Made by a program: the position numbers and the translations under genes | Notes under the pieces: model-generated | The model's database searches: none | Seen by the model: the letters and a program-made list of their open reading frames with translations, nothing else | Told to the model about the DNA's origin: nothing | Assembly: GCF_031458325.1 (NCBI RefSeq) | Contig: NZ_JAVDYG010000001.1 | Span: 186,001-250,000 of the forward strand | Direction: 5' to 3' | Origin: Nocardioides marmoribigeumensis | GTDB lineage: Bacteria; Actinomycetota; Actinomycetes; Propionibacteriales; Nocardioidaceae | DNA: 64,000 nt | Shown here: in pieces, positions 88-17,131 of the stretch | How the letters are laid out: every line of letters begins with the position of its first letter | How positions within the stretch are numbered: position 1 is the stretch's first letter

Positions 88-1056
88 ATGACCACGACGA
101 CCACCAGCTCGCACGACATCCCCGTCGAGGCCGACCTCGACGCCGCGCCCGGACTGCTCGACGGCGCGATGTCGCTGGAGCTGACGCCGCAGCAGTGCAA
201 CCTGGAGTACTGGATCGGCGCCGTCGCCCAGGGCACGCTGCGCGGTCTCGCGAAGGGCGGCCACCGCCCCGAGACCCCCGTCCCGGACCACATGCTCCTG
301 GAGGGCCCGCTGCGGCAGGCCCTCATCGAGGAGTTCGCCTTCCGCTCCGTCGCGGAGGAGAAGGCCACCCGCGCGCTGTCCTACCTCGTGCTGCACGCCC
401 CCGACACCGACACCATGGAGTTCTTCGCCACCCAGCTGGTCGACGAGGCTCGTCACTCGGCCTGCTTCCGCGGCCACCTGCTCGAGCTCGGGGTCGGCGA
501 GGAGGAGCTCGCCGAGACCGTCGAGCGTGCGGCCGGCGCGGACGTCGCGTCCGTGCTGGTGCCCCTCGAGGAGTTCGGCCTCCCCCTGGGACGCGACCAC
601 GGCGACTTCATCGGCGGGGTCATCGTGATCACCGTCCTCGTCGAGGGGGTCCTGGCCCCCGCCGCCGAGCTGAGCGAGCGCAAGTGGCGCCTGCTCGACC
701 CGGCCGCCGCCGAGATCGAGCGCGCGGCGGGCGTCGACGAGATCCGCCACCTCACCGTCGGCAGCTCGATCGTCAAGCGCTACCTCGAGGAGCACCCCGA
801 GGAGCTGGACCGCGTGCAGGCCCTCATCACCCGCGGCCGCGAGCTGTGGGGCAGCCTGCCGGTGCTCGACATGATCCTGCGCCGCGAGCAGCTCTTCCAG
901 CAGGGTCTGGCCGACCACGAGGACCTGCTCGCCGACTACGAGATCGCCCCCGGCAAGCGCCTGCTCGACACCACCGCGGAGGAGCGGATGATGCTCGCCG
1001 CCACGTGGTCGCTGGAGATGCAGGAGAGCCGGCTCGCCTACATGGGACTGAGCTGA
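88..1056 (+). CDS. Ferritin-like diiron oxidase, VlmB type
   Basis: A 322-residue helical protein with the ligand pattern of a ferritin-like diiron oxygenase: Glu in AEEKATR (about residue 90), ExxH in DEARHS (E120, H123), Glu in VEGVLAP (E186) and ExxH in DEIRHL (E218, H221). VlmB of the valanimycin pathway belongs to this type; as I recall it oxidises an N-N intermediate to the azoxy group. That role here is inferred from neighbours (DAG-kinase-like, MmgE/PrpD, DUF2156 and small membrane genes downstream). The ATG at 88 is chosen because a GAGGAGAG ribosome site lies just upstream; an in-frame start at 52 would add an unlikely proline-rich leader. The gene ends two bases before the MMPL start, so it is in the operon. 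An AurF-like N-oxygenase is the alternative. Confidence 0.75.
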   Translation: MTTTTTSSHDIPVEADLDAAPGLLDGAMSLELTPQQCNLEYWIGAVAQGTLRGLAKGGHRPETPVPDHMLLEGPLRQALIEEFAFRSVAEEKATRALSYLVLHAPDTDTMEFFATQLVDEARHSACFRGHLLELGVGEEELAETVERAAGADVASVLVPLEEFGLPLGRDHGDFIGGVIVITVLVEGVLAPAAELSERKWRLLDPAAAEIERAAGVDEIRHLTVGSSIVKRYLEEHPEELDRVQALITRGRELWGSLPVLDMILRREQLFQQGLADHEDLLADYEIAPGKRLLDTTAEERMMLAATWSLEMQESRLAYMGLS

Positions 1057-1057
1057 C

Positions 1058-3166
1058 ATGGAACAGCTCATGGAGCGGGCCGCCCGCGCCCTGCTCGCCC
1101 GCCGCGGCCGCGTCCTGGTCGTCTGGGCGCTGCTCTGCGTGGTCGGCGCCGGCTTCGCCGCCGGTCTCCCGGGCCGCATCGTGTCCGGCGGTGAGGCGCC
1201 GGCCTCGGCGGACTCCGAGAAGGTCGCCCGCGCCCTCGCCGACAGCCCGCTGCCCTCGCTCTTCCTCGCCGTCCGGCTGCCCGCGGACGCCTCCCCGGCG
1301 CTCACCGAGCAGGTCGTCACGAAGGTGGCCGACGAGGCCGGCGACGTCGACGGCGTCACCCGGGTCAGCCGCCTGCCCGACACCCCTCCGGTGACCGAGG
1401 ACGGCGCACGCGTGGTCGTGCTGAACCTGTCCACGACCGGCGGCACGGACGGCGCGATCAAGGTCGCCCACGAGCTCGAGAGCCACGCCGAGCACCTCGC
1501 CCCCGAGGGGACCGACGTGTACGTCGGCGGGTTCGGCGCCTACCGCGACCAGCTCACCGCGCTGTCGCAGCACGACCTGGAACAGGCCGAGCGGCTCGGG
1601 CTCCCGATCGTCTTCCTCGTGCTCCTGCTGACCTTCGGGTCGGTCTGGGCCGCCGGGCTGCCGCTGGTCATCGCGCTGTCCGGGCTGCTGATGGGGCTCG
1701 GCGCGGTCGGCGCGGCGTCGTACGTCCTGCCGATGTCGGACTTCGTCACCAACTCCGCCTCGATGATCGGCGTCGCCCTCGGCGTCGACTACGCGATGTT
1801 CCTGCTGCAGCGGGTCCGCGAGCTCACCCGCCGCGGCACCTCCACCGACGAGGCGATCGTGCAGGCGATGCGCTCGACGGGCACGGCCGTGCTGTGGAGC
1901 GCGGTCACCGTCCTCGCCGCGGAGGCGACCCTCCTGCTCGTCGACAGCCGGTCGATCCGCTCGGCCGCGTTCGGCATGGTGATGGTGACGCTCTTCGCGG
2001 GCCTGACCGCGCTGGTCGTGGCCCCGGTGCTGATCTCGCTGTTCGGCCGCCGGGTCGCCGTCCCCCGCCGCCACGCCGCGGAGGGCGCCTCGACCGCCGG
2101 CTGGCGCCGGTGGGCCACGCGCGTCACCGGCCGCGGAGCGCTGTGGCTGGTGGTGAGCTCGGGCCTGCTCGTCGCCCTCGCGCTGCCCGCGCTCGGGCTG
2201 CGTGACCACGTCTCGATCTCCGGGGCCTCCACGCTGCCGGCCCACGCATCGGTGCGGCAGGCCTACGAGCAGGCCGCGCTGCGCTACGGACCGACCGCGA
2301 TGTCGCCGGTCACGGTGCTCACCGACGGGCCGGACGCGCCCCTGCGGCAGGTGCTCGCGAGCTCGCCCGACGTGGTCTCGGTCGACGCCGTGCCGCTGGG
2401 CGACGGCCGGTCGGCCGTGGCGGTCACCACCACGCACGAGCCCTACTCCGCAGCGAACCGCGACTTCGTCCAGATGCTGCGGGACCGCTCCGACGGCGAC
2501 TACCTCGTCGGGGGCGAGACCGCGGCCTCGATGGACGCGACCCGCGCGATGTTCGACGGGCTCCCACGGGTCGGCGTCGCGCTCCTGGTCGTGGTCGCCC
2601 TCGTGCTGCTCCTGGCGCTGCGGTCGGTCTTCCTGCCGCTCAAGGCGGTCGCGCTCGTCGTGGTCTCCCTCGGGGCGAGCCTGGGCTCGCTGCTCCTGCT
2701 CACCAGCACCGAGTGGGGAGCGAGGCTGATCGGGGCCAGCGGCCCGGGCGACATCCACCCGATCGTGCCGATCACGATCGTCGCGGTGACGGTGGCGCTC
2801 TCGACCGACTACGAGGTCATCCTCATCTCGCGCATGAAGGAGGTCTTCGAGCGCACCGGCGACAACCGCGGCGCGATCGTCGACGGCGTCGAGCACACCG
2901 GCGGTGTCATCACGAGCGCCGCCGCGATCATGGTCGCCGTCTTCTTCGGCTTCGCGATGGCCGACCTCGCGCCCCTCAAGCAGCTGGGCGTCGGCCTCGC
3001 CATCGCCGTGGTCCTCGACGCGACCGTGGTGCGCGGTGTCCTCGTCCCGGCCGCGATGGCCGTGATGGGCGCGCGCAACTGGTGGTGGCCGGGACGCCCG
3101 GTGAGCCTCCCGGTGGTGCCCGAGCCGCGACCCCGCCACGCCCGCCTCGAGGAGGTGGCGTCGTGA
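1058..3166 (+). CDS. MMPL/RND-family membrane transporter
   Basis: A 702-residue integral membrane protein of the MMPL branch of RND exporters. It has an N-terminal transmembrane helix (VLVVWALLCVVGAGFAAGL), a large extracytoplasmic loop, a helical bundle, then a second loop and bundle. The two halves carry paired motifs, GVDYAMFLLQRVRE and STDYEVILISRMKE, as expected for the internal duplication of this family. MMPL proteins typically export lipids or lipophilic metabolites, which suits the lipid-modifying genes around it, so export of the cluster product (or immunity) is the likely role by inference. It starts two bases after the diiron gene stop, and its own stop overlaps the GTG of the next gene. 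Confidence 0.85.
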   Translation: MEQLMERAARALLARRGRVLVVWALLCVVGAGFAAGLPGRIVSGGEAPASADSEKVARALADSPLPSLFLAVRLPADASPALTEQVVTKVADEAGDVDGVTRVSRLPDTPPVTEDGARVVVLNLSTTGGTDGAIKVAHELESHAEHLAPEGTDVYVGGFGAYRDQLTALSQHDLEQAERLGLPIVFLVLLLTFGSVWAAGLPLVIALSGLLMGLGAVGAASYVLPMSDFVTNSASMIGVALGVDYAMFLLQRVRELTRRGTSTDEAIVQAMRSTGTAVLWSAVTVLAAEATLLLVDSRSIRSAAFGMVMVTLFAGLTALVVAPVLISLFGRRVAVPRRHAAEGASTAGWRRWATRVTGRGALWLVVSSGLLVALALPALGLRDHVSISGASTLPAHASVRQAYEQAALRYGPTAMSPVTVLTDGPDAPLRQVLASSPDVVSVDAVPLGDGRSAVAVTTTHEPYSAANRDFVQMLRDRSDGDYLVGGETAASMDATRAMFDGLPRVGVALLVVVALVLLLALRSVFLPLKAVALVVVSLGASLGSLLLLTSTEWGARLIGASGPGDIHPIVPITIVAVTVALSTDYEVILISRMKEVFERTGDNRGAIVDGVEHTGGVITSAAAIMVAVFFGFAMADLAPLKQLGVGLAIAVVLDATVVRGVLVPAAMAVMGARNWWWPGRPVSLPVVPEPRPRHARLEEVAS

Positions 3167-4101
3167 GGACGCTCGGCGGCACGACCTTCCGGGACTGCCT
3201 CGTCGTCGCCAACCCGGCGGCCGGCAGCATCCAGGACGACACCGCCTCCCGGGTCGCCACCGCGGTGGCGCGCTCGGGTGCACTCGAGGGCCCGCTTCGC
3301 CTGGTCCGCACCGAGGGCCCCGGCCACGCCGCGGCGCTCGCCGCGGGAGACCCGGCCGAGCTCGTCGTCGCGATCGGCGGGGACGGCACGGTCAGCGAGG
3401 TCACCCAGGTGCTCGCCGGCACCGACCGGACGCTGTGCGCCCTCCCCGCCGGCAGCGGCAACTCGACCGCCCGCGCGCTGTGGGGTGACCGCTCCTGCGA
3501 CGAGGTCACCGACCTGCTGCGGCACGGCCGGACCAGGACCTGGCGCATCGACCTGCTGCGCCTCGCCGAGCTCGACGCGGTGTCGGTGCTCGGCACGTCC
3601 ACCGGGTTCCTCGCGCAGGTGCTCGCCGACGCCGCGGCGTACGACGGCGTGCTGAGCGGGATCGACAGGTACTACGCGGCCGCCGCCGGACTCCTCTCCG
3701 ACATGCCCGACTCCCCCACCCGCGTGAGCGTCGACGGAGCCGTGCTCAGCGACGGGCCGACGAGCTCGGTCGCGATCGGCGGCGGGAGGCACCGTGCCCG
3801 CGCGTTCGAGTTCCTGCCGCGATCGGTGCTCGACGACGGGCTGCTCGACGTCAGCACCATCGAGCACCTCACCGGGGAGGCGACCGAGAGGGTGGCCGCC
3901 ACGATCCCGACCGGCGACCACCTCGACCTGCCCGGCGTGACCTACGCCCGCGGTCGCGAGGTCGTCGTGGAGCGCACCGACGGCCACCCCCTCGTCGCCG
4001 AGCACGACGGCACCGTCGTCGACGTCGGACCGCGCCTCACCGCCAGCGTCATGCCCGCCGCGCTCACCGTCCTCACCGTCCTCGACCGTCCTCGACCCTG
4101 A
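3163..4101 (+). CDS. Diacylglycerol/sphingosine kinase-fold kinase, VlmJ type
   Basis: A 312-residue lipid-kinase-fold protein with the nucleotide-binding GGDGT motif at residues 72-76, followed by LPAGSGNSTAR, both diagnostic of the DAGK catalytic family. GTG start, overlapping the MMPL stop (GTGA). In valanimycin biosynthesis the DAGK homologue VlmJ phosphorylates the hydroxyl of valanimycin hydrate so that an MmgE/PrpD protein (VlmK) can eliminate phosphate. An MmgE/PrpD gene lies three genes downstream, so that pairing is the preferred reading. The family assignment is firm; the substrate is inference. A lipid kinase that modifies membrane lipids is the alternative, given the adjacent desaturase. 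Confidence 0.82.
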   Translation: MRTLGGTTFRDCLVVANPAAGSIQDDTASRVATAVARSGALEGPLRLVRTEGPGHAAALAAGDPAELVVAIGGDGTVSEVTQVLAGTDRTLCALPAGSGNSTARALWGDRSCDEVTDLLRHGRTRTWRIDLLRLAELDAVSVLGTSTGFLAQVLADAAAYDGVLSGIDRYYAAAAGLLSDMPDSPTRVSVDGAVLSDGPTSSVAIGGGRHRARAFEFLPRSVLDDGLLDVSTIEHLTGEATERVAATIPTGDHLDLPGVTYARGREVVVERTDGHPLVAEHDGTVVDVGPRLTASVMPAALTVLTVLDRPRP

Positions 4102-4113
4102 AGGAAACCCGTC

Positions 4114-5223
4114 ATGACCCTCCTGACCGCCGCTCCCGAGCAGCCCCTCCACCCGGCAGCCGGACCGGGCATCCTGCCGCGGTCGGACTGGCCGTCCATC
4201 GGCAACCAGCACTGGACCGAGCTCCAACGCCGCATCAAGGCGGCCGGTCTTATGGACCCGAAGCCGGTCTACTACTGGGCCAAGATCACCTCCAACCTAG
4301 CGATGCTCGTCGCGTCGTGGGTGGCCCTCTTCGTCGTCGGCGACTCGTGGTGGTTCCTCGTGGTCGCGGCCGCCATGGCCTTCTGCTACACGCAGACCGG
4401 CTTCATCGGCCACGACATCGGGCACCGCCAGGTGACCCGCAGCCGCCGCGGGCAGGACCTCCTCGGGCTCCTGCACGGCAACCTGCTGATGGGCTTCTCC
4501 TACGGCTGGTGGGTGGGTCACCACAACAGCCACCACTCGAACCCCAACCACCTGGAGAAGGACTCCGACATCGTCCGCCGGCGGGCGATCTTCATCCCCG
4601 ACCAGGGGTTCGCGGAGAAGCGCCGCACGCGCGGGACGCAGTTCATCGTGCGGCACCAGCACCTGCTGTTCTACCCGCTGCTCTCCACCGAGTCGCTCGG
4701 CCTGCGCACCGAGTCCCTCAAGGCGCTGCGGGCCCGGCTGCCGCGCCTGACCCGCACCGAGACGGTGCTGATCCTCACCCACCTCGCCCTCTACTTCGGC
4801 ACGCTGGTGTGGGTCCTCGGCCCCCTCAAGGCGCTGCTGTTCGTGCTCACCATGAACGCGATGTTCGGGGTCTACATCGGCGCGGTCTTCGCCCCCAACC
4901 ACAAGGGGATGCCGATCCAGCTGCCCGAGGAGGAGTGGGGGTGGCTCACCCGCCAGGTCGTCACCTCGCGCAACATCCGGTCGTCGTACCTCATCGACTT
5001 CCTGTACGGCGGTCTCAACTACCAGGTCGAGCACCACCTCTACCCGGCCATGCCGCGCAAGAACCTGCGCCACGCGCGCCCGATCACCAAGGCCTACTGC
5101 GCCGAGATCGGCCTGCCCTACCACGAGGTCGGCGTCGTCCGGTCCTTCACCGAGGTCATCGCGCACCTCTACCGCACCACGAAGTCCTACCAGGCCCTCG
5201 CCGCCACCCAGAAGGAGATCTGA
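4114..5223 (+). CDS. Membrane fatty acid desaturase
   Basis: A 369-residue integral membrane di-iron desaturase with the three histidine boxes: HDIGH (100-104), HHNSHH (136-141) and QVEHH (304-308, with Gln in the first position of the third box as in front-end and DesA3-like desaturases). Transmembrane segments flank the boxes around residues 60-95 and 215-255. The family introduces a double bond in an acyl chain on CoA, lipid or carrier. Here it sits between the kinase and methyltransferase genes, separated by 12 and 3 bases, with a GGAAAC ribosome-site-like sequence upstream. Likely it desaturates the acyl chain that becomes the alkyl part of the cluster product. Regiospecificity cannot be read from sequence. 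Confidence 0.88.
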   Translation: MTLLTAAPEQPLHPAAGPGILPRSDWPSIGNQHWTELQRRIKAAGLMDPKPVYYWAKITSNLAMLVASWVALFVVGDSWWFLVVAAAMAFCYTQTGFIGHDIGHRQVTRSRRGQDLLGLLHGNLLMGFSYGWWVGHHNSHHSNPNHLEKDSDIVRRRAIFIPDQGFAEKRRTRGTQFIVRHQHLLFYPLLSTESLGLRTESLKALRARLPRLTRTETVLILTHLALYFGTLVWVLGPLKALLFVLTMNAMFGVYIGAVFAPNHKGMPIQLPEEEWGWLTRQVVTSRNIRSSYLIDFLYGGLNYQVEHHLYPAMPRKNLRHARPITKAYCAEIGLPYHEVGVVRSFTEVIAHLYRTTKSYQALAATQKEI

Positions 5224-5226
5224 CCC

Positions 5227-6132
5227 ATGTCCGTGCTCGACCGCCCCACCGACGTCGGCCAGCTCCGGCCCAGCCAGACCGCCGAGATCACCTGCGCGCA
5301 GCGGGCCGGCGAGACCCTGCGGCCTGCCGACCGCCGCCTCATCGACGACCCCGTCGCACGGGTCTTCGTCACCCGGCCCCTGCGCCGGCTGATGGTCCGC
5401 AACCGGGTCACCTCGCGCCTCACCCTGAGGACCTTCGACCACCTCTACGGCGGGTTCATGGCGATCGTCCTGCTGCGCAACCGCTGGTTCGAGGAGCTGC
5501 TCGCCGAGCTCGTGTCCGACGGGGTCACCCAGGTGGTCAGCCTGGGAGCCGGCTACGACACGACCGCGTGGCGGCTGGACCTCGGCGGCGCCACGCTCTT
5601 CGAGGTCGACGCCCCTCCGACCCAGGAGCTGAAGCGCTCCCTCACCCGCGGCCTCGAACCGCGCGGTGACCTGCGCTACGTCGCCTGCGACTTCGAGACC
5701 GACTCGCTTCCCGAGCGCCTGCTCGAGGCCGGCTTCGACCCCACGAGGCCCGCGCTGTTCGTCTGGTACGGCGTCTCGTTCTTCCTCACCCCCGCCGCCG
5801 TCCGCGTCACCCTGGAGGACGTCGCCGGGCTGGCCGCCGTCGGCAGCCGGTTCGTCTGGGACTACCTCGACCCGTCGGTGGTCGACGGCACGACGCGCTA
5901 CCGCGGGGCCCTGCGCGCGCGGGCCGCGGTGGCCAAGCGTGGCGAGCCCTACACCTACGGGCTCACCGCCGACGGCGCGGAGAAGGTCATGGAGCTGCAC
6001 GGCTTCCGCGTCGAGGACAACCTGTCGATGGCCCAGCTCGCAGGACGGTACGGCGGCCCGCGCGGTTTCGCCTACAGCACCGACGACTTCTTCGGGATCG
6101 TCACCGGGGTCCGCGTCCGGGACGTGCCGTGA
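5227..6132 (+). CDS. SAM-dependent O-methyltransferase, LCMT/PPM1-like family
   Basis: A 301-residue class I methyltransferase of the leucine carboxyl methyltransferase-like family, abundant in actinobacteria. The SAM loop reads VSLGAGYDTTAWRLDL near residues 103-119, followed by an acidic ribose-binding segment LFEVDAP; the N-terminal AQRAGETLRPADRRLIDDP block is also typical. Members methylate carboxyl or hydroxyl oxygens. In this operon it could methylate the carboxylate or a hydroxyl of an azoxy product (inference). Its stop overlaps the GTG of the next gene, and it starts 3 bases after the desaturase stop. Confidence 0.82.
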   Translation: MSVLDRPTDVGQLRPSQTAEITCAQRAGETLRPADRRLIDDPVARVFVTRPLRRLMVRNRVTSRLTLRTFDHLYGGFMAIVLLRNRWFEELLAELVSDGVTQVVSLGAGYDTTAWRLDLGGATLFEVDAPPTQELKRSLTRGLEPRGDLRYVACDFETDSLPERLLEAGFDPTRPALFVWYGVSFFLTPAAVRVTLEDVAGLAAVGSRFVWDYLDPSVVDGTTRYRGALRARAAVAKRGEPYTYGLTADGAEKVMELHGFRVEDNLSMAQLAGRYGGPRGFAYSTDDFFGIVTGVRVRDVP

Positions 6133-7595
6133 CGGCGATCGAGCGGCTGTCCACCTGGGCGTCCTCGGTGCGCCTGCCGGACGTCCCCGACCGGGTCGTC
6201 GCGCTCGCGGAGAGCCAGGTGCTCTCGCAGCTCGCGGCGGCCCGCGCCGGGCTCCAGCACCCGCTCGGGCAGCGGCTGGTCGCGGGGCTGGGCCGTCCCT
6301 TCGACGGCGCCGCCGCGCAGTCGGCGTACGTCCTCGCCGGGCTGACGTCGTGGCTGCACTTCGACGACACGGCCTATGCCGGCCACCTGTCCAACTCGAC
6401 CGCGACCGTGCCGCTGGCCTACGCCCACGCGCTGGAGCTCGACGGCGAGCAGCTGCTGACCGCCGTGGTCGTCGCCAACGAGTGTGCGGCGCGGATCGCG
6501 GCGGCCGCCACGCTGGGCCGTTTCCGCGGGCAGAACGCCGCCCACACGCACGTCGCGGGCGCGGTCGCGGGACGCCTCGCCGCCGAGGCGGCGCCGCGGC
6601 AGCAGTGGGTGGACGCGCTGGGGCTGGCGTTCAGCCTCCCGCCCTACCCGCTCCTGCCGGCCTTCCTCAGCAGTGACGCGAAGACGCTCAGCGCCTCGGT
6701 GCCGGTGCGTCTCGGGCTCGACGCCTGCGACGCCGCGGCGGCCGGGCTGCAGGGGCACCCCGGGATCCTCGAGGAGCCGGACGGCTTCCTGGACCGCTTC
6801 GCGACCGTGCCGCTTCCGGAGGCCGTCGACCTCGACCTCGGCGTGCGCTGGCACACCGACTCCCTGTCCTTCAAGGTCCACCCGGGCGGGCCCGGCCTGG
6901 ACGCCGCGGTCGACTGCGCCTCGGAGCTCGTGTCCCGCTTGGGGCTCCTCGAGGAGGCCGACGTCGCGTCGGTGGTGGTGGAGACCTCGCTCTACACGAT
7001 CGTGGTCGAGCAGCGCGCCGGCGCGTTCGTCGACGGCCCCCGCTCGCCCGTGCACGCCCTGGTCTTCCACACGCCGTACGCCGTGGCGACGACGCTGCTC
7101 ACCGGGTCCTTCTCGGGGCCTGACCTCGCCCCGCCGCGGCTCGACGACGACGCCCGGTGGGCCCTGGCCGCGCGGGTGCGGCTCGAGCACGACGAGGCGA
7201 TGACGCGCGAGTCCCTGAGGTGCGAGGTGCCGTTCGGCGAGGCCGTGCGGCAGGCCGGCCCCCGGGCCGAGGCCTGGCTCTCCGAGGTCGGCGGCGACTG
7301 GCTGGTGGACCTCGTCGGCACGCCGCCACCGCCCTCGCCGACCTTCGACGGCGTGGCCAAGGCGACCCCCGCCCGCGTGGTGCTCACGCTGGCCGACGGG
7401 TCGGTGCACGTCGCGGAGCGCTCGATCCCCGTCGGCGCGACCGGTGACCCCTCACGCGACCACCACGCCTCGCTGGTGCGACGCAAGTGGTCGTCCGTGG
7501 GCGGGGACGAGAAGGTCGCCGACCTCGCCCTGTCGCTGAGGACCGCCTCGGCCTCCGACGTGCGCCTCATGCTCGAGGCCGCACTCACGCCCTGA
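6129..7595 (+). CDS. MmgE/PrpD-family dehydratase/lyase, VlmK type
   Basis: A 488-residue MmgE/PrpD-fold protein (2-methylcitrate dehydratase superfamily), with the N-terminal helical domain starting around LSTWASSVRLPDVPDRVVAL, the conserved LTSWLHFDDTA segment, and the AYAHALELDGEQLLTAVVVANE block typical of the family. GTG start overlaps the methyltransferase stop. VlmK from the valanimycin cluster is a member of this family and acts with VlmJ to dehydrate valanimycin hydrate by eliminating phosphate. Co-occurrence with a DAGK-like kinase in this operon supports the same two-step phosphorylation/elimination. An ordinary iminodisuccinate- or methylcitrate-type lyase is unlikely without prp genes nearby. 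Confidence 0.8.
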   Translation: MTAIERLSTWASSVRLPDVPDRVVALAESQVLSQLAAARAGLQHPLGQRLVAGLGRPFDGAAAQSAYVLAGLTSWLHFDDTAYAGHLSNSTATVPLAYAHALELDGEQLLTAVVVANECAARIAAAATLGRFRGQNAAHTHVAGAVAGRLAAEAAPRQQWVDALGLAFSLPPYPLLPAFLSSDAKTLSASVPVRLGLDACDAAAAGLQGHPGILEEPDGFLDRFATVPLPEAVDLDLGVRWHTDSLSFKVHPGGPGLDAAVDCASELVSRLGLLEEADVASVVVETSLYTIVVEQRAGAFVDGPRSPVHALVFHTPYAVATTLLTGSFSGPDLAPPRLDDDARWALAARVRLEHDEAMTRESLRCEVPFGEAVRQAGPRAEAWLSEVGGDWLVDLVGTPPPPSPTFDGVAKATPARVVLTLADGSVHVAERSIPVGATGDPSRDHHASLVRRKWSSVGGDEKVADLALSLRTASASDVRLMLEAALTP

Positions 7596-7678
7596 GATCT
7601 CGCGCCGAGACGTATCACCGGCCGTCGCGAACGCCTCTTCCCTCCCGACAGATCCCCACCCCGGAGGAGACCAGCGAC

Positions 7679-8128
7679 ATGCCCGTCATCGACGAGACCG
7701 TGACCGTCCCAGCGCCCGTGCCGACCGTGTTCTCCTACCTGGTCGACGGCGAGAACCTCCCGGCCTGGGACAGCTCGATCATCGAGTGCACCCGGGTGGC
7801 CGGGGCCGCCGAGGTCGCGGTCGGCACGCGCTACGCCGGCGTCAGCAGGATCATGGGCAAGCGCCTCCCCTGGACCACCGAGGTCGTCGAGCACACCCCC
7901 GACCGCAGCGCGACCAGCCGCAGCGTCGAGGGGTCCCTCAGCTTCACCGCGACCTACGAGGTCGAGGCCGTCCCGGGCGGCACCCGTGTCCGCTACCTGC
8001 TGCAGGCCGACTCCGGCCTGGGTGGGGCCTTCGGCAAGGTGATGGAGCCCCTGGTCGAGAAGGCGCAGACCAAGGTCGTCCGCGCCAACCTCCAGCACCT
8101 CGTCGCGACGTTCGCGAAGGTGGCCTGA
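7679..8128 (+). CDS. SRPBCC (START-like) ligand-binding protein
   Basis: A 149-residue SRPBCC/polyketide-cyclase-like helix-grip protein (starts MPVIDETVTVPAPVPTVFSY, then DGENLPAWDSSIIE). The fold binds hydrophobic ligands. ATG at 7679 is preceded by GGAGGAGACC, a strong ribosome site; longer in-frame starts upstream would overlap the end of the MmgE/PrpD gene. The 83-base gap before it is the largest inside the operon and could hold an internal promoter, although none is convincing. It ends one base before the reductase start. Function is unknown; it may bind or present a lipophilic pathway intermediate. Confidence 0.75.
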   Translation: MPVIDETVTVPAPVPTVFSYLVDGENLPAWDSSIIECTRVAGAAEVAVGTRYAGVSRIMGKRLPWTTEVVEHTPDRSATSRSVEGSLSFTATYEVEAVPGGTRVRYLLQADSGLGGAFGKVMEPLVEKAQTKVVRANLQHLVATFAKVA

Positions 8129-8129
8129 G

Positions 8130-9164
8130 ATGACGCGCACGATCCTCCTCACCGGTGCCTCGGGCGTCGTCGGCAAAGCCCTGCTGCCGCGCCTGCTGCG
8201 GAGCGGCGACCGGGTCGTCGCCCTGGTCCACCGCACTCCCGTCACCCACCCCGGCGTCACCAGCATCCGCGGCGACGTCGCCGCCCCGCGGCTGGGGCTC
8301 TCCGAGCGCGACCACGCCGCCCTGGCCCGCCAGGTCGACGTCGTGGTCCACGCCGCCGCCGTCACCGACTTCAACCGCAGCGACGGGTCGCTCGAGGCCA
8401 CCAACATCGCGGGGACCAGCAACATGGTCGCCCTGGCCGAGGCCGCCGGAGCCCTGCTCTACCACGTGTCCACGGCGTTCGTCGGGGTCGGCAGCACGGT
8501 CGGTCGCGGTGAGCAGGCCGCCGGCTACGCGGCCTCCAAGGCCCAGGGTGAGGACGTCGTACGACGGGCCACGGTGCCGCACGTGATCCTGCGGCCGAGC
8601 GTCGTGATCGGGGACTCCGAGACCGGCGAGATGGCAGCCTTCCAGGGCCTGCACCAGGTCGTGCAGGGGCTCTTCGCCGGCCTCGTGCCGATCATCCCCT
8701 TCGACGCCGCCTGGCCGATCGACTTCGTCCCCGTCGACGTCGTCGCCGACTGCATCGCCACCGTGGTGGAGAAGCGCGTGACCGAGGGTGAGCTCTGGCT
8801 CGCCGCGGGCGACCGCGCGCTGCGCCTCGACGACGCGATGGACGTCGCGGTCGAGTGGGCCCACCGGTGCGGCGTCGAGGTCGACACCCCGCGGTTCGTC
8901 ACCCCCGACCTGTGGGACCGGCTCATCGCGCCGGTGTTCCTCGACGAGCTGCCCGACTTCGTGGCCAGGTCGGTGACCCGGATGCTGGAGTTCTTCACGA
9001 CGTACCTCCAGGACGGGCAGACCAAGCCGAGCAGCCTGCGCGAGCTCGAGGCCCTCGGCGCGATGCCGCTGCCGGACCAGACCGAGTCCCTCGCCGCGAG
9101 CCTGCACCACTGGGCCGACGTCAAGGGGCACCACCTGTGCGAGGCGACCAGGAGCGCGGCGTGA
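8130..9164 (+). CDS. Fatty-acyl (thioester) reductase, NAD(P)-dependent SDR family
   Basis: A 344-residue extended short-chain dehydrogenase with N-terminal nucleotide-binding motif TGASGVVG (8-15), the catalytic YxxxK as YAASK (133-137) and STAFVG contributing the Ser/Thr. The segment ILRPSVVIGDSETGEM is characteristic of fatty-acyl-CoA reductases and carboxylic-acid-reductase terminal domains (Male-sterility/NAD-binding_4). Expected reaction: reductive release of an acyl thioester to an aldehyde. The directly coupled class III aminotransferase would convert that aldehyde to an amine. No adenylation or carrier domain is fused, so the acyl-CoA or acyl-ACP must come from elsewhere. Confidence 0.8.
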   Translation: MTRTILLTGASGVVGKALLPRLLRSGDRVVALVHRTPVTHPGVTSIRGDVAAPRLGLSERDHAALARQVDVVVHAAAVTDFNRSDGSLEATNIAGTSNMVALAEAAGALLYHVSTAFVGVGSTVGRGEQAAGYAASKAQGEDVVRRATVPHVILRPSVVIGDSETGEMAAFQGLHQVVQGLFAGLVPIIPFDAAWPIDFVPVDVVADCIATVVEKRVTEGELWLAAGDRALRLDDAMDVAVEWAHRCGVEVDTPRFVTPDLWDRLIAPVFLDELPDFVARSVTRMLEFFTTYLQDGQTKPSSLRELEALGAMPLPDQTESLAASLHHWADVKGHHLCEATRSAA

Positions 9165-10405
9165 ACCACCTCGACCGCGACCTGGTGCTCGCCAGGTACG
9201 ACCAGCACGTCAGCTCCTCCCTCGCCAACATCGCCCGGATGGTGTCGACCCCGGTCGAGACCCACGCCGAGGGCGCCCACGTCCACGGCAGCGACGGCCG
9301 GACCTACCTCGACTGCGGCGGCTTCGGGGTGTTCCTTCTCGGGCACCGCCACCCCAAGGTCGTCGAGGCGGTCCACCGCCAGCTGGACCGCAACCCCCTG
9401 GCCACGCGGCTGTTCCTCAATCCCGAGCTCGCCGACGCGGCCGCGGAGCTGGCGTCGGTGTCCCCCGCCGGGCTCGACAAGGTGTTCCTGACCAACTCCG
9501 GCGCCGAGGCGACCGAGGTCGGCATCAAGCTCGCCCGCCTCGCCGGCAAGGGACGCGTCGTCGCGACCACCGGTGGCTTCCACGGCAAGACGACCGGCGC
9601 GCTCAGCGTCACCGGCCGGCCGCAGTACCGCGACCCGTTCGGGCCGCTGCTGCCCGGCGTGGAGTTCGTCGCCTTCGGCGACCTGGCCGCGCTCGAGGCG
9701 GTGATCGGCCCCGACACCGTCGTCATCCTCGAGCCGGTGCAGGCCGAGGGCGGCGTGCGGGTGCCGCCTCCCGGCTACCTCCGCGCGGTGCGCGACCTGT
9801 GCACCACGCGCGGCGCGCTGCTCGTGCTCGACGAGATCCAGACGGGTCTCGGCCGGCTCGGCACGTGGTGGGGTGCGGACCGGGAGGGCGTCTCCCCCGA
9901 CGTGCTGCTCACCGGCAAGATCCTCGGCGGCGGCGTGATGCCGGTCGGCGGAGTCGTGGCCACCGCCGAGGTGTTCGCGCCCCTCGACGCCGACCCCCTG
10001 CTGCACTCCAGCACCTTCGCCGGCAGCCCGCTGGCCAGCGCGGCCGTGTCCGCGACGATCGGCGTCCTCCGCGAGGAGGGGCTGGTCGAGCGCACCGCCG
10101 AGCTCGGCCCGCACGTGCTGGAGATGACCCGCGCCGCCATGGAGCAGCACTGCCCGCACCTGGTGACCGAGACCCGGGGCGAGGGGCTCCTCGTCGGCGT
10201 GGACCTGGTCACCGCCGAGGCGGCTACCGAGCTCCTCATCGCCCTGCTCGACGAGGGCGTCATCCCGTCGTACTCCCTCAACTCCAGCAACGTCCTGCGG
10301 CTCACCCCGCCGGCCGTGCTGACCACCGACGACCTGCACCGGCTCGAGTCCGCACTGGACCGGGCAGCAGCCACCCTCGGCCGGACCCTCCGCGCCGCCG
10401 CCTGA
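9161..10405 (+). CDS. Class III PLP-dependent aminotransferase
   Basis: A 414-residue fold-type I aminotransferase of the ornithine/GABA/acetylornithine class. Visible marks are TNSGAEATEVGIKLAR (PLP phosphate loop), GFHGKTTGAL, the acidic DEIQTGLGR motif binding the pyridine nitrogen, and the Schiff-base lysine in LTGKILGGG (K253). GTG at 9161 overlaps the reductase stop, a strong sign of coupled translation and joint function. Likely it aminates the aldehyde from the upstream acyl reductase to yield a fatty or alkenyl amine, the amine partner for N-hydroxylation. Longer in-frame N-terminal extension exists but would overlap the reductase out of frame. Confidence 0.87.
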   Translation: MNHLDRDLVLARYDQHVSSSLANIARMVSTPVETHAEGAHVHGSDGRTYLDCGGFGVFLLGHRHPKVVEAVHRQLDRNPLATRLFLNPELADAAAELASVSPAGLDKVFLTNSGAEATEVGIKLARLAGKGRVVATTGGFHGKTTGALSVTGRPQYRDPFGPLLPGVEFVAFGDLAALEAVIGPDTVVILEPVQAEGGVRVPPPGYLRAVRDLCTTRGALLVLDEIQTGLGRLGTWWGADREGVSPDVLLTGKILGGGVMPVGGVVATAEVFAPLDADPLLHSSTFAGSPLASAAVSATIGVLREEGLVERTAELGPHVLEMTRAAMEQHCPHLVTETRGEGLLVGVDLVTAEAATELLIALLDEGVIPSYSLNSSNVLRLTPPAVLTTDDLHRLESALDRAAATLGRTLRAAA

Positions 10406-10450
10406 CCGCCGACACCACTGACCGCCCCACCACACAAGGAGAACACCACC

Positions 10451-10930
10451 ATGCGCATCGTCGAGATCCTCATCGACGTCCCGGACCGGACCGCCACCGA
10501 GGCGTACGCCGCCCTGGCCGACTTCGAGCGCTACCCGGACCTCGCCGACGCCGTCAACAGCGTCGCGGTCACCCGGGTCGCCGAGCACGTCACCCGCTCC
10601 GCGTGGGAGGTGAAGTTCCGCAACGGCCTGCTCCGCTGGGTCGAGGAGGACACCTTCGACGCCGCGGGTAGGACCATCACGTTCCGCCAGCTCGAGGGGG
10701 ACGTGGCCGTCTTCGACGGCTCCTGGCGCTGCCTCGACGCGGCGGACGGGGCCCGGATCGCCTTCCACGCACGGATCGACATGGGCATCCCCAGCCTGGC
10801 CGACGCGCTGGAGCCGATCGCCGCCCGCACGCTGGTGGACAACACCGTCGCGATCGTCGGCGGCCTCCTCGACGGCGCCGCCCTGCACGCCTCGAGCGTG
10901 GCCACGCCGGACCAGCAGGCGGTGGCGTGA
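10451..10930 (+). CDS. SRPBCC / polyketide-cyclase-like protein
   Basis: A 159-residue helix-grip protein of the polyketide cyclase/dehydrase family (starts MRIVEILIDVPDRTATEAYA, then ADFERYPDLADAVNSV; the FxxYPxLxxxV pattern is typical of coenzyme-Q-binding and aromatase/cyclase-like members). A clear AAGGAGAA ribosome site precedes the ATG. It is the second SRPBCC gene in the operon and only distantly similar to the first. Its stop overlaps the start of the acyl-CoA-dehydrogenase-like gene. A catalytic role in cyclisation is possible, but no polyketide synthase is present in the window, so ligand binding or chaperoning of a lipophilic intermediate is equally likely. Confidence 0.75.
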   Translation: MRIVEILIDVPDRTATEAYAALADFERYPDLADAVNSVAVTRVAEHVTRSAWEVKFRNGLLRWVEEDTFDAAGRTITFRQLEGDVAVFDGSWRCLDAADGARIAFHARIDMGIPSLADALEPIAARTLVDNTVAIVGGLLDGAALHASSVATPDQQAVA

Positions 10931-12054
10931 TGACGATCATGAGGCGCGAGCGCGCGACGCTCGAGGACTACCTCCCCGGCCTGGACAAGTACCTCGCCGA
11001 CCGGCCCCTGGAGGAGCTCGAGGCGCCCGGCAACGGGTCGCTCGAGGTCTTCCGCGAGGTCGGGGGGCCGGCGCTCATGGTGCCCGCGGACCTCGGCGGC
11101 AAGGGGGCCAGCCTGGTCGACGCCGTGCGCATCCAGCGCGCGGTCGGCAGCCGGTCCCCCAGCCTGGCCGTGGCCAGCACCATGCACCACTTCTCGGTCG
11201 CCTCGCTCGTCGAGCTGACCGCCGTCGGTGACGGCTTCGAGTGGGCCATGCTCACCGCCATCGCGGAGCAGCAGTGGCTGCTGTCCTCGGGGTTCGCCGA
11301 GGGCCGGCCCGGCCAGCACATCCTGTCCCCCGGCATGCGGGGCACCGCCGTCGAGGGCGGCCTCCTCGTCAACGGCGTCAAGAAGCCCTGCTCGCTCACC
11401 TGGTCGATGCACCTGATGTCGGCCAGCGTCGCCGTCACCGACCCCGACGGCGGCCCCGACCGGCTGGCCATCGTGCTCATCCCGGCCGAGTCCGAGGGCC
11501 TCGAGCGCACGAGGTTCTGGCAGTCGCCGGCGCTCACCGGCGCCGAGAGCGACCAGGTCACGCTGACCGACGTGCTCGTCCCCGAAGCGCTCGTGTTCTA
11601 CCCCGAGGACGGCGACCACATGGACCCGATCCAGGCGCGCGGCTTCGTGTGGTTCGAGCTGCTCGTCTCCGCGTCGTACCTCGGCGCGGCGACCCGCCTG
11701 GCCGAGCGCGTGCTGCGCGAGCACCGCGGGTCCGACCAGGACCGGACCGACCTCGCCGTCGAGCTGGAGACCGCGATGGCCGCGCTGGAGGAGGTGGCGC
11801 GGGCCTCGGAGACCAGCGAGGACGACGACGACCTCCTCGCGCGCGCGCTGTTCGCGCGCTACGCGACCGAGCGCACCATCGAGCGCGTCGTGATGGCCGC
11901 CTCGGCGGCCGCCGGGGGGATGGCGTTCATCGGCAGCGGCGAGGTCGCCTACCTCCTCGCCGCCACCCGCGCCCTGGCCTTCCACCCGCCCTCCCGAGCG
12001 GCCGCCTCCGGCCCGCTCGCGGCGTACCTCGCCGGCGAACCGCTGGCCCTCTAG
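10930..12054 (+). CDS. Acyl-CoA dehydrogenase-fold flavoprotein, possible amine N-hydroxylase
   Basis: A 374-residue protein of the acyl-CoA dehydrogenase superfamily: N-terminal helical domain with LMVPADLGGKGASLVDAVR, a middle beta domain (VEGGLLVNGVKKPCSLT), and a C-terminal four-helix domain. This superfamily includes FAD/FMN monooxygenases such as isobutylamine N-hydroxylase VlmH. Given the amine-forming genes upstream and the VlmA-like gene downstream, N-hydroxylation of the amine is the favoured role, by inference. True acyl-CoA dehydrogenation is the alternative, for example to desaturate the chain. The ATG at 10930 overlaps the SRPBCC stop; a GTG at 10927 and an ATG at 10939 are possible alternatives. 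No flavin reductase is seen in the window. Confidence 0.72.
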   Translation: MTIMRRERATLEDYLPGLDKYLADRPLEELEAPGNGSLEVFREVGGPALMVPADLGGKGASLVDAVRIQRAVGSRSPSLAVASTMHHFSVASLVELTAVGDGFEWAMLTAIAEQQWLLSSGFAEGRPGQHILSPGMRGTAVEGGLLVNGVKKPCSLTWSMHLMSASVAVTDPDGGPDRLAIVLIPAESEGLERTRFWQSPALTGAESDQVTLTDVLVPEALVFYPEDGDHMDPIQARGFVWFELLVSASYLGAATRLAERVLREHRGSDQDRTDLAVELETAMAALEEVARASETSEDDDDLLARALFARYATERTIERVVMAASAAAGGMAFIGSGEVAYLLAATRALAFHPPSRAAASGPLAAYLAGEPLAL

Positions 12055-12066
12055 GAGACGAGACCC

Positions 12067-12555
12067 ATGGACTCCCACAACCTGTTCTTCACGCGCGCGA
12101 CGGCGTACTGGCTGCGGGCGGAGTACGCCCTGGCCCTGGCCGTCGCCGTGGTGCTGGCCGTCCTGCACCTCGGCGAGATCCGATGGCTGTCCTTCATCGG
12201 GCTGTTCCTCTACATCGACCTCATCGGCTACCTGCCCGGCGCCGTCGCGTTCCGCCGGTCGCCGGACGGCCGGGTCCCGCTCGCCTACTACCGGCTCTAC
12301 AACGTCATGCACTCCCACCTCAGCGCCGCGCTCGTCGCCGGGGTCTGGTGCCTGGTCGTGGGCCCGGAGTGGGCGCTGCTCGCGCTGCCGATCCACCAGT
12401 GCGGCGACCGCGCGCTCTTCGGCAACTTCCAGAAGCCCTACGGCCTGTCCTTCGAACCCGCTACCCACCCCGCCTACCAGGAGCTCGTGAACCGCTATGA
12501 CCAGCCAGACCCTGCACGCCCCCCAGACCGAGCCGTCGTCCGCACAGCTGCTTGA
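12067..12555 (+). CDS. Small integral membrane protein, possible VlmO type
   Basis: A 162-residue protein with about four hydrophobic segments: roughly residues 18-36 (YALALAVAVVLAVLHL), 40-60, 78-98 and 100-115. Polar residues lie in or near the membrane (LYNVMHSHLSAAL; LPIHQCGDRALFGN), suggesting an enzyme rather than a simple anchor. The valanimycin cluster also encodes a small membrane protein (VlmO) which, as I recall from recent work, is needed for N-N bond formation. Identification here rests on size, topology and being sandwiched between VlmH-like and VlmA-like genes, not on alignment. Its last 59 bases overlap the next gene in another frame. Confidence 0.6.
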   Translation: MDSHNLFFTRATAYWLRAEYALALAVAVVLAVLHLGEIRWLSFIGLFLYIDLIGYLPGAVAFRRSPDGRVPLAYYRLYNVMHSHLSAALVAGVWCLVVGPEWALLALPIHQCGDRALFGNFQKPYGLSFEPATHPAYQELVNRYDQPDPARPPDRAVVRTAA

Positions 12556-13510
12556 GCGCCACGCCGACAACCCGTCGGCCTACCTCGCCCTCAACGAGGG
12601 CACGCAGCACTTCCGCGCACCCGGCATCGACGGCCTCGTGGCCTACCGCCCGGCCGGCCGGCGGGCCCTCGTCCAGCTCGGCGGCGCCTTTGCGGCACCG
12701 GAGGACCGGCCGGCCCTGCTGGCCGCGTTCGCGACGTACGCCGAGGAGCGGCGGCGACGGATCGTCGCCGTCCAGCTGCTCCGTGAGGACGCGGAGCTCT
12801 ACGCCGCCAACGGCTTCGTGGTGAACCAGCTCGGCGCGAACTACGCCCGGGCGCTCGCGGGGTTCGACCTCAAGGGCAAGAAGCACGTGTCACTGCGCAA
12901 CAAGGTCTCCCGCGCCCGGCGCGCCGGCGTCACGGTGACCGAGACCCCGCTCGACGCGCGTCTGCGGCGCGAGCTCGAGGAGGTCGACGCCGTCTGGCTG
13001 CGCGCCAAGGGCAGGCACGTCAAGGAGATCCAGCTCATGGTCGGCGAGGTCGGCGGCGAGGCCCAGGCGCAGCGCCGGCTCTTCGTCGCCCGTGACGAGG
13101 CCGGGCAGGTGCTCGGCTACCTCTCCTTCGCCCCCGTCTTCGGCAGCCGCGCGGGCTGGCTGCACGACCTCTCGCGACGTCGTCCCGACGCCCCGCCCGG
13201 GGTGCTCGAGCTGCTCGTGGTCAGTGCGGTGGAGGCCTTCCGGGCCGAGGGTGCGGGCTTCCTCCACTTCGGGATGACGCCGTTCACCGGCCTCGACCCG
13301 GCGCACGAGGTCGAGGGGGCCAGCCCGATGACGGCGCGGTTCGTGCGCCTGCTCGCGGAGAAGGGCTCGTTCGTCTACCCGGCGGCCGCCCAGCTGGCCT
13401 ACAAGGAGAAGTGGGCGCTGGACCTGGTCGAGCCGGAGTACGTCGCCTTCCAGGGCCGGCTCACGCCGGGGGCCCTGGTGGCACTGCTGCGGGTGACCAA
13501 CTCGGTCTGA
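12497..13510 (+). CDS. DUF2156/MprF-like aminoacyl-tRNA-dependent transferase, VlmA type
   Basis: A 337-residue protein matching the catalytic C-terminal domain of MprF/lysylphosphatidylglycerol synthase (tandem GNAT-like folds). Visible marks are KHVSLRNKVSRARRAG (tRNA-contacting basic helix), GYLSFAPVFGSRAGWLHDLS, PPGVLELLVVSAVEAF and HFGMTPFTGL. It lacks the N-terminal membrane flippase, so it is soluble. VlmA of the valanimycin pathway is of this type and transfers serine from seryl-tRNA to isobutylhydroxylamine. The equivalent here would be seryl transfer to a fatty hydroxylamine (inference). The ATG lies 59 bases inside the preceding gene; no later start keeps the N-terminal domain. No seryl-tRNA synthetase copy is present in the window. 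Last gene of the operon. Confidence 0.75.
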   Translation: MTSQTLHAPQTEPSSAQLLERHADNPSAYLALNEGTQHFRAPGIDGLVAYRPAGRRALVQLGGAFAAPEDRPALLAAFATYAEERRRRIVAVQLLREDAELYAANGFVVNQLGANYARALAGFDLKGKKHVSLRNKVSRARRAGVTVTETPLDARLRRELEEVDAVWLRAKGRHVKEIQLMVGEVGGEAQAQRRLFVARDEAGQVLGYLSFAPVFGSRAGWLHDLSRRRPDAPPGVLELLVVSAVEAFRAEGAGFLHFGMTPFTGLDPAHEVEGASPMTARFVRLLAEKGSFVYPAAAQLAYKEKWALDLVEPEYVAFQGRLTPGALVALLRVTNSV

Positions 13511-13559
13511 GGGTGCCCGCCGGCCCGGGCCAGGGCAGCCCGCGAGCAAGCCGGCCGTC

Positions 13560-13588
13560 TTGACTGGTTCGAACATGTGTTCGATCAT
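13560..13588 (+). promoter_or_regulatory. SOS promoter of imuA' (LexA box between -35 and -10)
   Basis: A perfect mycobacterial-type SOS box TCGAAC-ATGT-GTTCGA occupies 13569-13584. It is framed by TTGACT at 13560-13565 and GATCAT at 13583-13588 with 17-base spacing, so LexA would block the promoter directly. Transcription would begin about 7 bases later, at or next to the ATG at 13595, implying a leaderless mRNA. Confidence 0.85.
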
Positions 13589-13594
13589 GGAGCC

Positions 13595-14257
13595 ATGTCC
13601 TCCAGCCGCTCCGTGCCGCTCGACCCGGGGCGGCCGGTCGTCGACCAGCTCCGGGAGCGGGTGGCGGCGATGGAGCGGCGACCAGCCCTGGAGCCGGTCC
13701 CCACGATGCCGGACATCGCCGAGGTCCTGCAGCTGCATGCGGGGGCGACGTACGCCGTCGACTCCGCCTCCCTGGCGCTGGCCCTGGCTGCAGGGGCGTC
13801 GCAGGCCGGAGAGTGGGTCGGCTTCGCCGGCTGCCCCGACTTCGGGGCCGAGGCGGCGGCCGAGGTCGGCATCGAGCTCTCGCGCACGGTCCTCGTCCCC
13901 GACCCCGGCGAGCACTGGCTCGAGGTGACAGCGGCGCTGGTCGACGTGCTCCGCGTGGTGGTCCTCCGGCCTCCCGCCTCGGTCAGCGAGCGCACCGCGG
14001 GCGTCCTCGACTCGCGGCTGCGCACCCGCTCAGCCGTCCTCGTCGTCCAGGGCGAGTGGCCGCGCGCGACCGCCCGGCTGAGCACCGAGCTGTCCACCTG
14101 GCGCGGCCCGACCTCGGGCACCGGACGGCTCGAGGAGCGGCGCGCCCGCGTCGCGGTGCACCGGGGCGCCCGCCCCCCGCTGCGCGCCGACCTCACCTGG
14201 CCCGGCCTGCGTCGCGTCGACCGGCCGGCGCACGAGGACCTCCGGGCGTCCGGCTGA
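13595..14257 (+). CDS. imuA': ImuA'-like SOS mutasome accessory protein
   Basis: A 220-residue protein with the weak RecA/SulA-like character of actinobacterial ImuA' (AEVLQLHAGATYAVDSASLA, AGEWVGFAGCPDFGAEAAAE, LRVVVLRPP, LVVQGEWPRATARLST). ImuA' works with ImuB and the polymerase DnaE2 in DNA-damage-induced mutagenesis. The start at ATG 13595 is chosen because an upstream GTG at 13577 lies inside the SOS box. Unlike the usual contiguous arrangement, imuB does not follow directly: a minus-strand gene intervenes and a second SOS promoter drives imuB. Family recognition rests on context plus motifs; sequence conservation of ImuA' is low. Confidence 0.75.
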   Translation: MSSSRSVPLDPGRPVVDQLRERVAAMERRPALEPVPTMPDIAEVLQLHAGATYAVDSASLALALAAGASQAGEWVGFAGCPDFGAEAAAEVGIELSRTVLVPDPGEHWLEVTAALVDVLRVVVLRPPASVSERTAGVLDSRLRTRSAVLVVQGEWPRATARLSTELSTWRGPTSGTGRLEERRARVAVHRGARPPLRADLTWPGLRRVDRPAHEDLRASG

Positions 14258-14270
14258 CGCACGAGCCGAC

Positions 14271-14294
14271 GTTAGGACGTTAGGACGTCAGGAC
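14271..14294. repeat. Three tandem 8-bp near-repeats
   Basis: The unit GTTAGGAC occurs as GTTAGGAC, GTTAGGAC, GTCAGGAC between the imuA' stop and the stop of the inverted secreted-protein gene. It marks one edge of the stretch that separates imuA' from imuB. It might be a scar of insertion or only simple-sequence slippage. Confidence 0.6.
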
Positions 14295-15310: not shown

Positions 15311-15430
15311 GGTTCCCCCACGATGGTCGAGTGGCCCGTCGGTCGGGCAGTCAGCGGGACGCTACTCGCGAGATTGGGCTCCCGTCAGGGTCCCGGGTCC
15401 GAGACGGGCCTTTCGTCACGGTTCCCCGTC

Positions 15431-15459: not shown

Positions 15460-15464
15460 TGGGC

Positions 15465-17116: not shown

Positions 17117-17131
17117 GGACCGTGCGGCCTG

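Follow-up and report, generated by a model that had tools for sequence, protein, structure and literature searches.

Gene clusters for aliphatic azoxy natural products have a published core of five genes, VlmA, VlmB, VlmH, VlmO and VlmR (PMC9379638), and clusters of this kind have been described for valanimycin and azodyrecin. In this report, we analyze a stretch of 64,000 nucleotides from Nocardioides marmoribigeumensis (the window; bases 186001 to 250000 of a 4.44-Mb single-contig genome, window base 1 being genome base 186001), in which a set of genes related to both clusters lies near the left end. We conclude that this locus very probably directs the synthesis of a lipid azoxy natural product from a gene cluster organized mainly as one operon. 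For the product itself, we see about an even chance that it is a methyl 2-(alk-1-enyl-azoxy)acrylate bearing a fatty chain, that is, a hybrid of valanimycin and azodyrecin. The cluster most likely represents a new variation on an already known type of pathway rather than a type of its own, because two other clusters share its VlmB, VlmJ, VlmK and methyltransferase genes.

In the azodyrecin proposal, the dehydrogenase Ady2 converts a fatty acid to an aldehyde, Ady4 is the transaminase, Ady3 and Ady10 form the N-hydroxylase pair, Ady7 is VlmA, Ady6 and Ady8 are VlmO and VlmB, and Ady9 is a likely desaturase; Ady1 makes the methyl ester in vitro (PMC9379638). VlmJ and VlmK are the exo-olefin pair of valanimycin. 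In a survey in the same paper, which used PF09924 as its model of VlmA, 179 VlmA/VlmH pairs were reported from 3146 actinobacterial genomes, and some of the VlmA groups had Ady1-like methyltransferases and VlmJ/VlmK pairs in their vicinity (PMC9379638). Each of these modules is therefore already known. For VlmO, a review describes residues D51, H82, H110 and D114 as essential and also gives VlmO/VlmB from Kitasatospora setae (PMC11705231). The producer of KA57-A is treated in PMC6662830.

An analysis of open reading frames combined with a Pfam scan (threshold 0.001) places 13 closely packed genes, all on the plus strand, at positions 88 to 13510 of the window (Table 1). At the 12 junctions, the tightest spacing is an overlap of 59 bases and the widest a gap of 83 bases, and 11 of these junctions are overlaps or gaps of at most 45 bases. 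Because the 13 genes are so tightly spaced on one strand, they likely form one operon; with a divergent pair of genes immediately to the left, they make up a compact cluster of approximately 15 kb. The initial annotation of this DNA had placed six of the genes in the families of VlmB, VlmJ, VlmK, VlmH, VlmO and VlmA, and all six are open plus-strand frames in those families. The genes that it had described as desaturase, acyl reductase, aminotransferase, methyltransferase and MMPL exporter likewise fall in the corresponding Pfam families. To this list we add two SRPBCC-fold genes and the left-flank pair, which encodes a flavin reductase and an alpha/beta hydrolase.

Table 1. Genes of the candidate azoxy cluster and its left flank. 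Coordinates are window positions unless marked as genome positions, and the genes within the window are listed in their order along the plus strand.
Feature	Proposed role	Coordinates	Strand	Match or residues
VlmB homologue, ferritin-like diiron protein	Hydrazine-to-azoxy oxidase	88..1056	+	PDB 6d9f/8wvr
MMPL-family transporter	Exporter of lipidic product	1058..3166	+	PF03176, E 1.1e-69
VlmJ homologue, DAGK/YegS-fold kinase	Phosphorylation of the seryl hydroxyl of the azoxy intermediate	3163..4101	+	PF00781, PF19279
Membrane fatty acid desaturase	Ady9-type role; 1,2-olefin next to azoxy group	4114..5223	+	PF00487, E 5.4e-39
LCM-family carboxyl methyltransferase	Ady1-type role; methyl ester formation	5227..6132	+	PF04072, E 1.7e-42
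VlmK homologue, MmgE/PrpD fold	Phosphate elimination to exo-olefin (dehydroalanine)	6129..7595	+	PF03972/PF19305
SRPBCC-fold protein 1		7679..8128	+	PF10604, E 3.8e-22
SDR/thioester reductase	Ady2-type role; fatty acyl thioester to aldehyde	8130..9164	+	PF07993, E 3.2e-39
Class III aminotransferase	Ady4-type role; fatty aldehyde to amine	9161..10405	+	PF00202, E 3.4e-85
SRPBCC-fold protein 2, frequent VlmO neighbor		10451..10930	+	PF03364, E 7.3e-15
VlmH homologue, acyl-CoA dehydrogenase fold	Flavin-dependent amine N-hydroxylase	10927..12054	+	
VlmO homologue, small membrane protein	N-N bond-forming hydrazine synthase	12067..12555	+	D51, H82, H110, D114
VlmA homologue (LPG_synthase_C/DUF2156)	Aminoacyl-tRNA-dependent transferase	12497..13510	+	PF09924, E 4.7e-62
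Alpha/beta hydrolase, between flavin reductase and VlmB		genome 185311-185955 (outside window)	-	
Flavin reductase	VlmR candidate	genome 184773-185285 (just left of window)	-	PF01613, E 9.3e-38
VWA-domain gene, then CAAX-protease-like gene		further left of flavin reductase		Pfam

The window and its left flank provide candidates for all five core genes. The VlmB candidate has a sole PDB relative, 6d9f/8wvr ("Putative VlmB homolog"), which it matches with an E value of 7e-104 over approximately 313 residues. Its putative diiron motifs DEARH and DEIRH, together with further acidic residues, are invariant in all 46 aligned rows. In a plasmid collection, 11 records match this protein, and the 10 that are listed are all annotated "VlmB-like protein" under the match. 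The VlmO candidate, whose membrane location we judged by eye, carries the four residues mentioned earlier at the same positions as published, and these are invariant in an alignment of 81 rows (the window plus the best 80 of 227 relatives). The VlmA candidate is the only PF09924 match in the genome.

The operon also contains the valanimycin-type VlmJ/VlmK pair, as judged by family and by homologues in other genomes that carry VlmO. The GGDGT motif of the VlmJ candidate is invariant in 17 of 17 aligned rows, and the VlmK frame overlaps the methyltransferase gene by 4 bases. The genome has no extra seryl-tRNA synthetase corresponding to VlmL; a single PF02403 match is located approximately 1.6 Mb from the cluster. 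Thus, it is VlmJ and VlmK that carry the case for serine as the amino acid unit.

We examined the setting of VlmK in 392 genomes of one genus, that of the same-class, 7.8-Mb genome G626, by using a homologue cutoff of E<=1e-30. Forty of these genomes have a VlmK homologue, in 41 places (44-58% identical). In the stretches of up to 20 kb fetched around 40 of these homologues, VlmO is present in 17 and VlmB in 16; beyond these stretches, VlmB was looked for in G1015 (a Streptomyces-group genome) and G626 only. Because 20 of the 40 loci (L128-L147) lack VlmA, B, H, O and R in the stretch, we considered VlmJ/VlmK as an independent pathway. This idea was rejected when VlmO was found in those genomes, on the same contig and approximately 15-25 kb away for 18 of the 20. 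All 22 of the further VlmK genomes searched carry VlmO (19 on the same contig), and in G626 it is 21 kb away. In total, VlmO accompanies VlmK in 40 of 40 genomes, and in 37 of these the two genes share a contig and lie no more than 25 kb apart. These homology searches suggest that this VlmK subfamily marks VlmO clusters in the genus. A seryl-tRNA synthetase gene occurs near the cluster in 3 of the 40 fetched loci, some of which are short stretches, and a nearby copy is therefore seemingly not needed.

These results bear on whether the locus makes an ordinary azodyrecin analogue, with VlmA loading alanine and with VlmJ and VlmK either lacking activity or serving a different substrate. The roles of the methyltransferase, reductase, aminotransferase and desaturase are the same as in the ady cluster, where a tRNA synthetase is also absent, and the single seryl-tRNA synthetase in the genome also fits alanine. 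However, VlmJ and VlmK are open frames inside the operon, with the kinase motif retained and the VlmK gene overlapping its neighbor, and a cluster-borne seryl-tRNA synthetase appears dispensable in VlmK-bearing loci. We therefore consider the use of alanine unlikely.

None of the 13 cluster genes matched a polyketide synthase or nonribosomal peptide synthetase family in the Pfam scan, and thus the alkyl chain should derive from fatty acid metabolism. The reductase carries GASGVVG and YAASK motifs. The desaturase is approximately 43-50% identical to desaturases of VlmB-bearing loci, including L074 of Streptomyces atratus. The methyltransferase scores above the cutoff of TIGR00027 and is 42-43% identical to enzymes of G1015 and of L018, a locus in a metagenome-assembled genome (MAG).

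From these families we infer a route, including the use of serine and the order of the later steps. The reductase would convert a fatty acyl thioester from primary metabolism to an aldehyde, from which the aminotransferase would form a fatty amine. VlmH, with the flavin reductase encoded outside the window, would N-hydroxylate this amine. VlmA would then transfer the aminoacyl group from seryl-tRNA of the ordinary cell pool to the hydroxylamine, forming an ester, and VlmO would rearrange this ester to an N-N bonded hydrazine, which VlmB would oxidize to the azoxy group. VlmJ is predicted to phosphorylate the serine hydroxyl and VlmK to eliminate the phosphate, giving the exo-olefin. Finally, the methyltransferase would form the methyl ester, the desaturase would introduce the olefin beside the azoxy group, and the MMPL protein would export the product.

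To determine how often these genes occur together, we inspected the loci of the best 80 of the 227 relatives obtained by a VlmO alignment search of a titled genome collection. Genes were counted by tblastn with the window proteins (E<=1e-5). The counts are lower bounds, because flanks end approximately 10 kb out or at contig ends (for example, VlmK of the MAG locus L018 lay just past the flank), and many of the loci are close relatives, so that they are not independent events. Full flanks are available for 61 loci; the other 19, under 20400 bases, were set aside in full-flank counts. Among the 80 loci, core genes were matched in 72 (VlmH), 69 (VlmA), 62 (VlmR) and 45 (VlmB). SRPBCC 2 was matched in 61, the aminotransferase in 60, the SDR reductase in 19, the DAGK-family kinase in 17, the LCM methyltransferase in 14, the MmgE protein in 13, the desaturase in 12 and the MMPL transporter in 6; SRPBCC 1 and the hydrolase had no match. 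SRPBCC 2 occurs in both VlmB-bearing (23/34) and VlmB-less (24/27) full-flank loci, yet is outside the five published core genes. Many of the cluster families thus recur together around VlmO more than by chance, and on the basis of families, motifs and recurrence we rejected a chance grouping or misannotation.

This outcome supports the idea, put forward in the initial annotation, of an azoxy cluster built on the valanimycin enzyme set. The diiron protein is related to a solved VlmB homologue, the membrane protein has the four VlmO residues, and the DUF2156 protein belongs to PF09924, is part of the operon and has counterparts beside VlmO in most of the 80 loci. The accompanying guess of a product of the lipid-azoxy type fits the published azodyrecin gene set by family.

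VlmO is rare around the host. With a single-sequence query, the only one of 294 genomes sampled from the family to give a VlmO match was the window's own, and none of the 293 others did. In the order, VlmO was detected in 3 of 391 genomes and in the phylum, again with a single-sequence query, in 3 of 396, in both cases including the window's own genome; the three genome sets are samples that overlap. The glutamine synthetase of the host is 67-73% identical to those of eight of the genomes that provided the titled loci, among them Pedococcus, and thus none of the eight appears closely related to it. In a tree of joined VlmO, VlmA and VlmH (68 rows, the long or distant L034, L036, L073, L077 and L080 having been dropped), the window forms a long branch, placed together with L018 and 19 VlmB-less loci (support 100/99). 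The other five VlmB-less rows sit elsewhere, and the VlmB-less loci are therefore not one group. A quick tree of 73 rows had joined the window to Burkholderiaceae rows, which was flagged as a long-branch join. Because the window row is a long branch, its place is unsure and is suggestive only.

Within the flanks available for the 80 loci, 45 have VlmB only, 30 have only a gene for a DAO-family flavin oxidase, none has both, and five have neither, four of these being short-flank loci. The 61 full-flank loci divide into 34 with VlmB, 26 with DAO and one (L051) with neither. The DAO query was G538_25168, and the family label comes from an L034 protein among its matches (PF01266, DAO). The full-flank DAO loci are L029, L033-L035, L037, L040, L044-L046, L049, L052, L056, L058, L060, L064, L065, L072, L073, L075, L077, L078, L080-L083 and L089, of which L073, L077 and L080 are Burkholderiaceae loci without VlmB. 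DAO without VlmB was also seen in L036, L050, L167, L193, L194 and the G538 cluster (L011/L012). Beyond the 80 loci, a DAO gene is also present in two VlmB-less loci that come from the host's order.

A review (PMC11705231) reports that hydrazines from another kind of N-N enzyme undergo oxidative cleavage by Spb39, which is homologous to D-amino acid oxidase, and by Apy10, which belongs to the same family as Spb39 and Tri27. By analogy, clusters with VlmO and DAO may release alkylhydrazines or hydrazones rather than azoxides, so that a second exit, leading away from azoxides, may exist for VlmO. The window and MAG proteins group in the tree with the VlmB-less DAO set, yet both loci have VlmB. 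We therefore tentatively suggest, at less than even odds, that VlmO is a general hydrazine module with two exclusive exits, VlmB leading to azoxides and DAO to a cleaved alkylhydrazine or hydrazone, and that the window's product is a hybrid electrophile, an alkenyl-azoxy-acrylate methyl ester.

The same comparison raises the question of whether the operon itself makes a hydrazine or hydrazone and no azoxide, as predicted for VlmB-less VlmO clusters. Apart from the tree grouping, whose long branch makes it unsure, the SDR reductase is mainly a feature of VlmB-less loci (14/27, vs 1/34 of VlmB-bearing full-flank loci), and VlmJ and VlmK are found together in two VlmB-less, DAO-bearing loci of the 80 (L036 and L050). 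However, VlmB is present in the window as an open frame with conserved diiron motifs, there is no DAO match in the 42 kb examined, VlmB and DAO never occur together in the 80 loci, and the desaturase is in no VlmB-less locus among them. Because of the VlmB frame and the absence of a DAO match, we rejected a hydrazine-only product as the principal explanation and regard it as very improbable. Another alternative is remodeling of membrane lipids by the LPG-synthase-like protein, the lipid kinase, the desaturase and the methyltransferase. It draws on families that also serve membrane lipids (PF09924, DAGK and desaturase) and on the closest PDB matches to the VlmA candidate, which are lysyl- and alanyl-phosphatidylglycerol synthases (best E 1.1e-17). 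We rejected it as extremely improbable, given that the operon contains a VlmB homologue and a VlmO homologue with its four reported metal residues, that the VlmA candidate is 46-59% identical to proteins near VlmO in other loci, and that VlmO was not found in the 293 other genomes sampled from the family, a distribution that speaks against a housekeeping function.

Several observations weigh against assigning the locus to a lipid azoxy product. The product and its chemistry are predicted here from the genes, and only the VlmB and VlmO candidates were compared with anything published as Vlm, the others being assigned by family or PDB relatives. The VlmH candidate matches no Pfam family at our threshold, and its PDB relatives, DszC-type and acyl-CoA-dehydrogenase-type chains that include flavin monooxygenases (best E 3.3e-9), are distant. 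The match of the SDR reductase to TIGR01746 falls below the model cutoff, and SRPBCC 1 and the hydrolase are the two cluster proteins that did not recur in the 80 VlmO loci. The amino acid unit, serine or alanine, is not readable from the sequence, and serine follows from VlmJ and VlmK. These two genes are, in turn, no proof of an azoxide, since L036, L050 and L167 have them beside DAO without VlmB; VlmK was therefore dropped as an azoxy marker and taken to mark VlmO clusters instead. This last point leaves our estimate for an azoxy product unchanged, because the window has VlmB and no DAO gene.

The cluster is at a species-variable site. DNA similarity to two congeneric genomes resumes at 13555-13559, directly after the last cluster gene. 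In one of them (G023), the interval from the glutamine synthetase gene to the ImuA'-like gene is approximately 33 kb, vs 18.5 kb here, and none of 20 cluster and left-flank query proteins matched within it; it is this difference in length and content that indicates a variable site. The comparison with the other (G040) covered approximately 14 kb left of the ImuA'-like gene at the DNA level. The composition gives no support for a recent foreign insertion, as the guanine-cytosine content of the cluster (0.731) is close to that of the rest of the window (0.730).

To the right are an ImuA'-like gene (so labeled from its position only, having no Pfam match), a gene on the opposite strand that also has no match, an IMS-family gene and a DnaE-type polymerase gene. 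Without the opposite-strand gene, these make up a mutasome-like set at 13577-20527. This set is interrupted by the opposite-strand gene (14288-15310), whose DNA is absent there in the two congeneric genomes. On the left, a VWA-domain gene is near the VlmO cluster both here (L002:15237-16679) and in Pedococcus (L034:15574-17334); the Pedococcus protein also has a solute-binding domain, and the shared neighbor may be chance.

The tailoring modules combined in this cluster were known separately, and their combination predicts a specific, testable structure, in which the exo-olefin of valanimycin would be joined to the methyl ester and 1,2-olefin of azodyrecin. A literature search by title and abstract, whose coverage leaves out most subscription papers and the key works on VlmO/VlmB and azodyrecin, found no report of such a hybrid. 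The cluster is compact, free of polyketide synthase and nonribosomal peptide synthetase matches, and located in a family otherwise without VlmO in our sample, and it raises the wider question of whether VlmO serves non-azoxy pathways.

Compared with the azodyrecin clusters (ady/azd; Streptomyces sp. RM72, A1C6 and S. mirabilis P8-A2), which lack a tRNA synthetase (PMC9379638), the locus has candidates for the same core VlmA/B/H/O/R and shares, by family and role rather than by alignment, the acyl reductase, aminotransferase, LCM-family carboxyl methyltransferase and desaturase. The described azodyrecin route is alanine derived and has no VlmJ/VlmK step, whereas the window adds VlmJ, VlmK, the MMPL transporter and two SRPBCC genes. 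Relative to the valanimycin cluster (vlm, Streptomyces viridifaciens), it has candidate counterparts of VlmA, B, H, J, K, O and R. It differs in having no second seryl-tRNA synthetase, in its additional desaturase and methyltransferase, and in its amine, which is predicted from the reductase and aminotransferase to be fatty instead of valine derived.

The locus L074, from Streptomyces atratus JCM 3386, is presumably the elaiomycin cluster, judging from the species; S. atratus NRRL-16927 is named as the source of ElaO in PMC11705231. Its proteins are 56% (VlmO), 58% (VlmB), 42% (VlmH), 47% (VlmA), 40% (VlmR), 52% (aminotransferase) and 47% (desaturase) identical to those of the window, but no VlmJ, VlmK, methyltransferase or SDR reductase match lies within its 20-kb stretch. 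VlmB, VlmJ, VlmK and the methyltransferase were observed together in three clusters: the window, the Corynebacteriales MAG AVDCRST_MAG41 (L018, L195 and L196) and G1015 (contig C277; L147 and L168). The latter two share with the window VlmB, O, A, H, R, J and K, the aminotransferase, SRPBCC 2 and the LCM methyltransferase. Locus L018 of the MAG is 64% identical in VlmO and 63% in VlmB and has VlmJ, the methyltransferase and the SDR reductase, with VlmK (59%) just beyond its flank; it differs in having a tryptophan-halogenase-family gene and no desaturase match. G1015 carries VlmJ, VlmB/O/R/H/A, the methyltransferase, the aminotransferase, the desaturase and two VlmK copies on one 32-kb contig, and it differs in having an aldehyde-dehydrogenase-family gene and no SDR reductase match. 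The two VlmK copies (L147:2435-4105, minus strand, and L147:5839-7458, plus strand) are 57% and 43% identical to that of the window and flank the methyltransferase and VlmJ genes.

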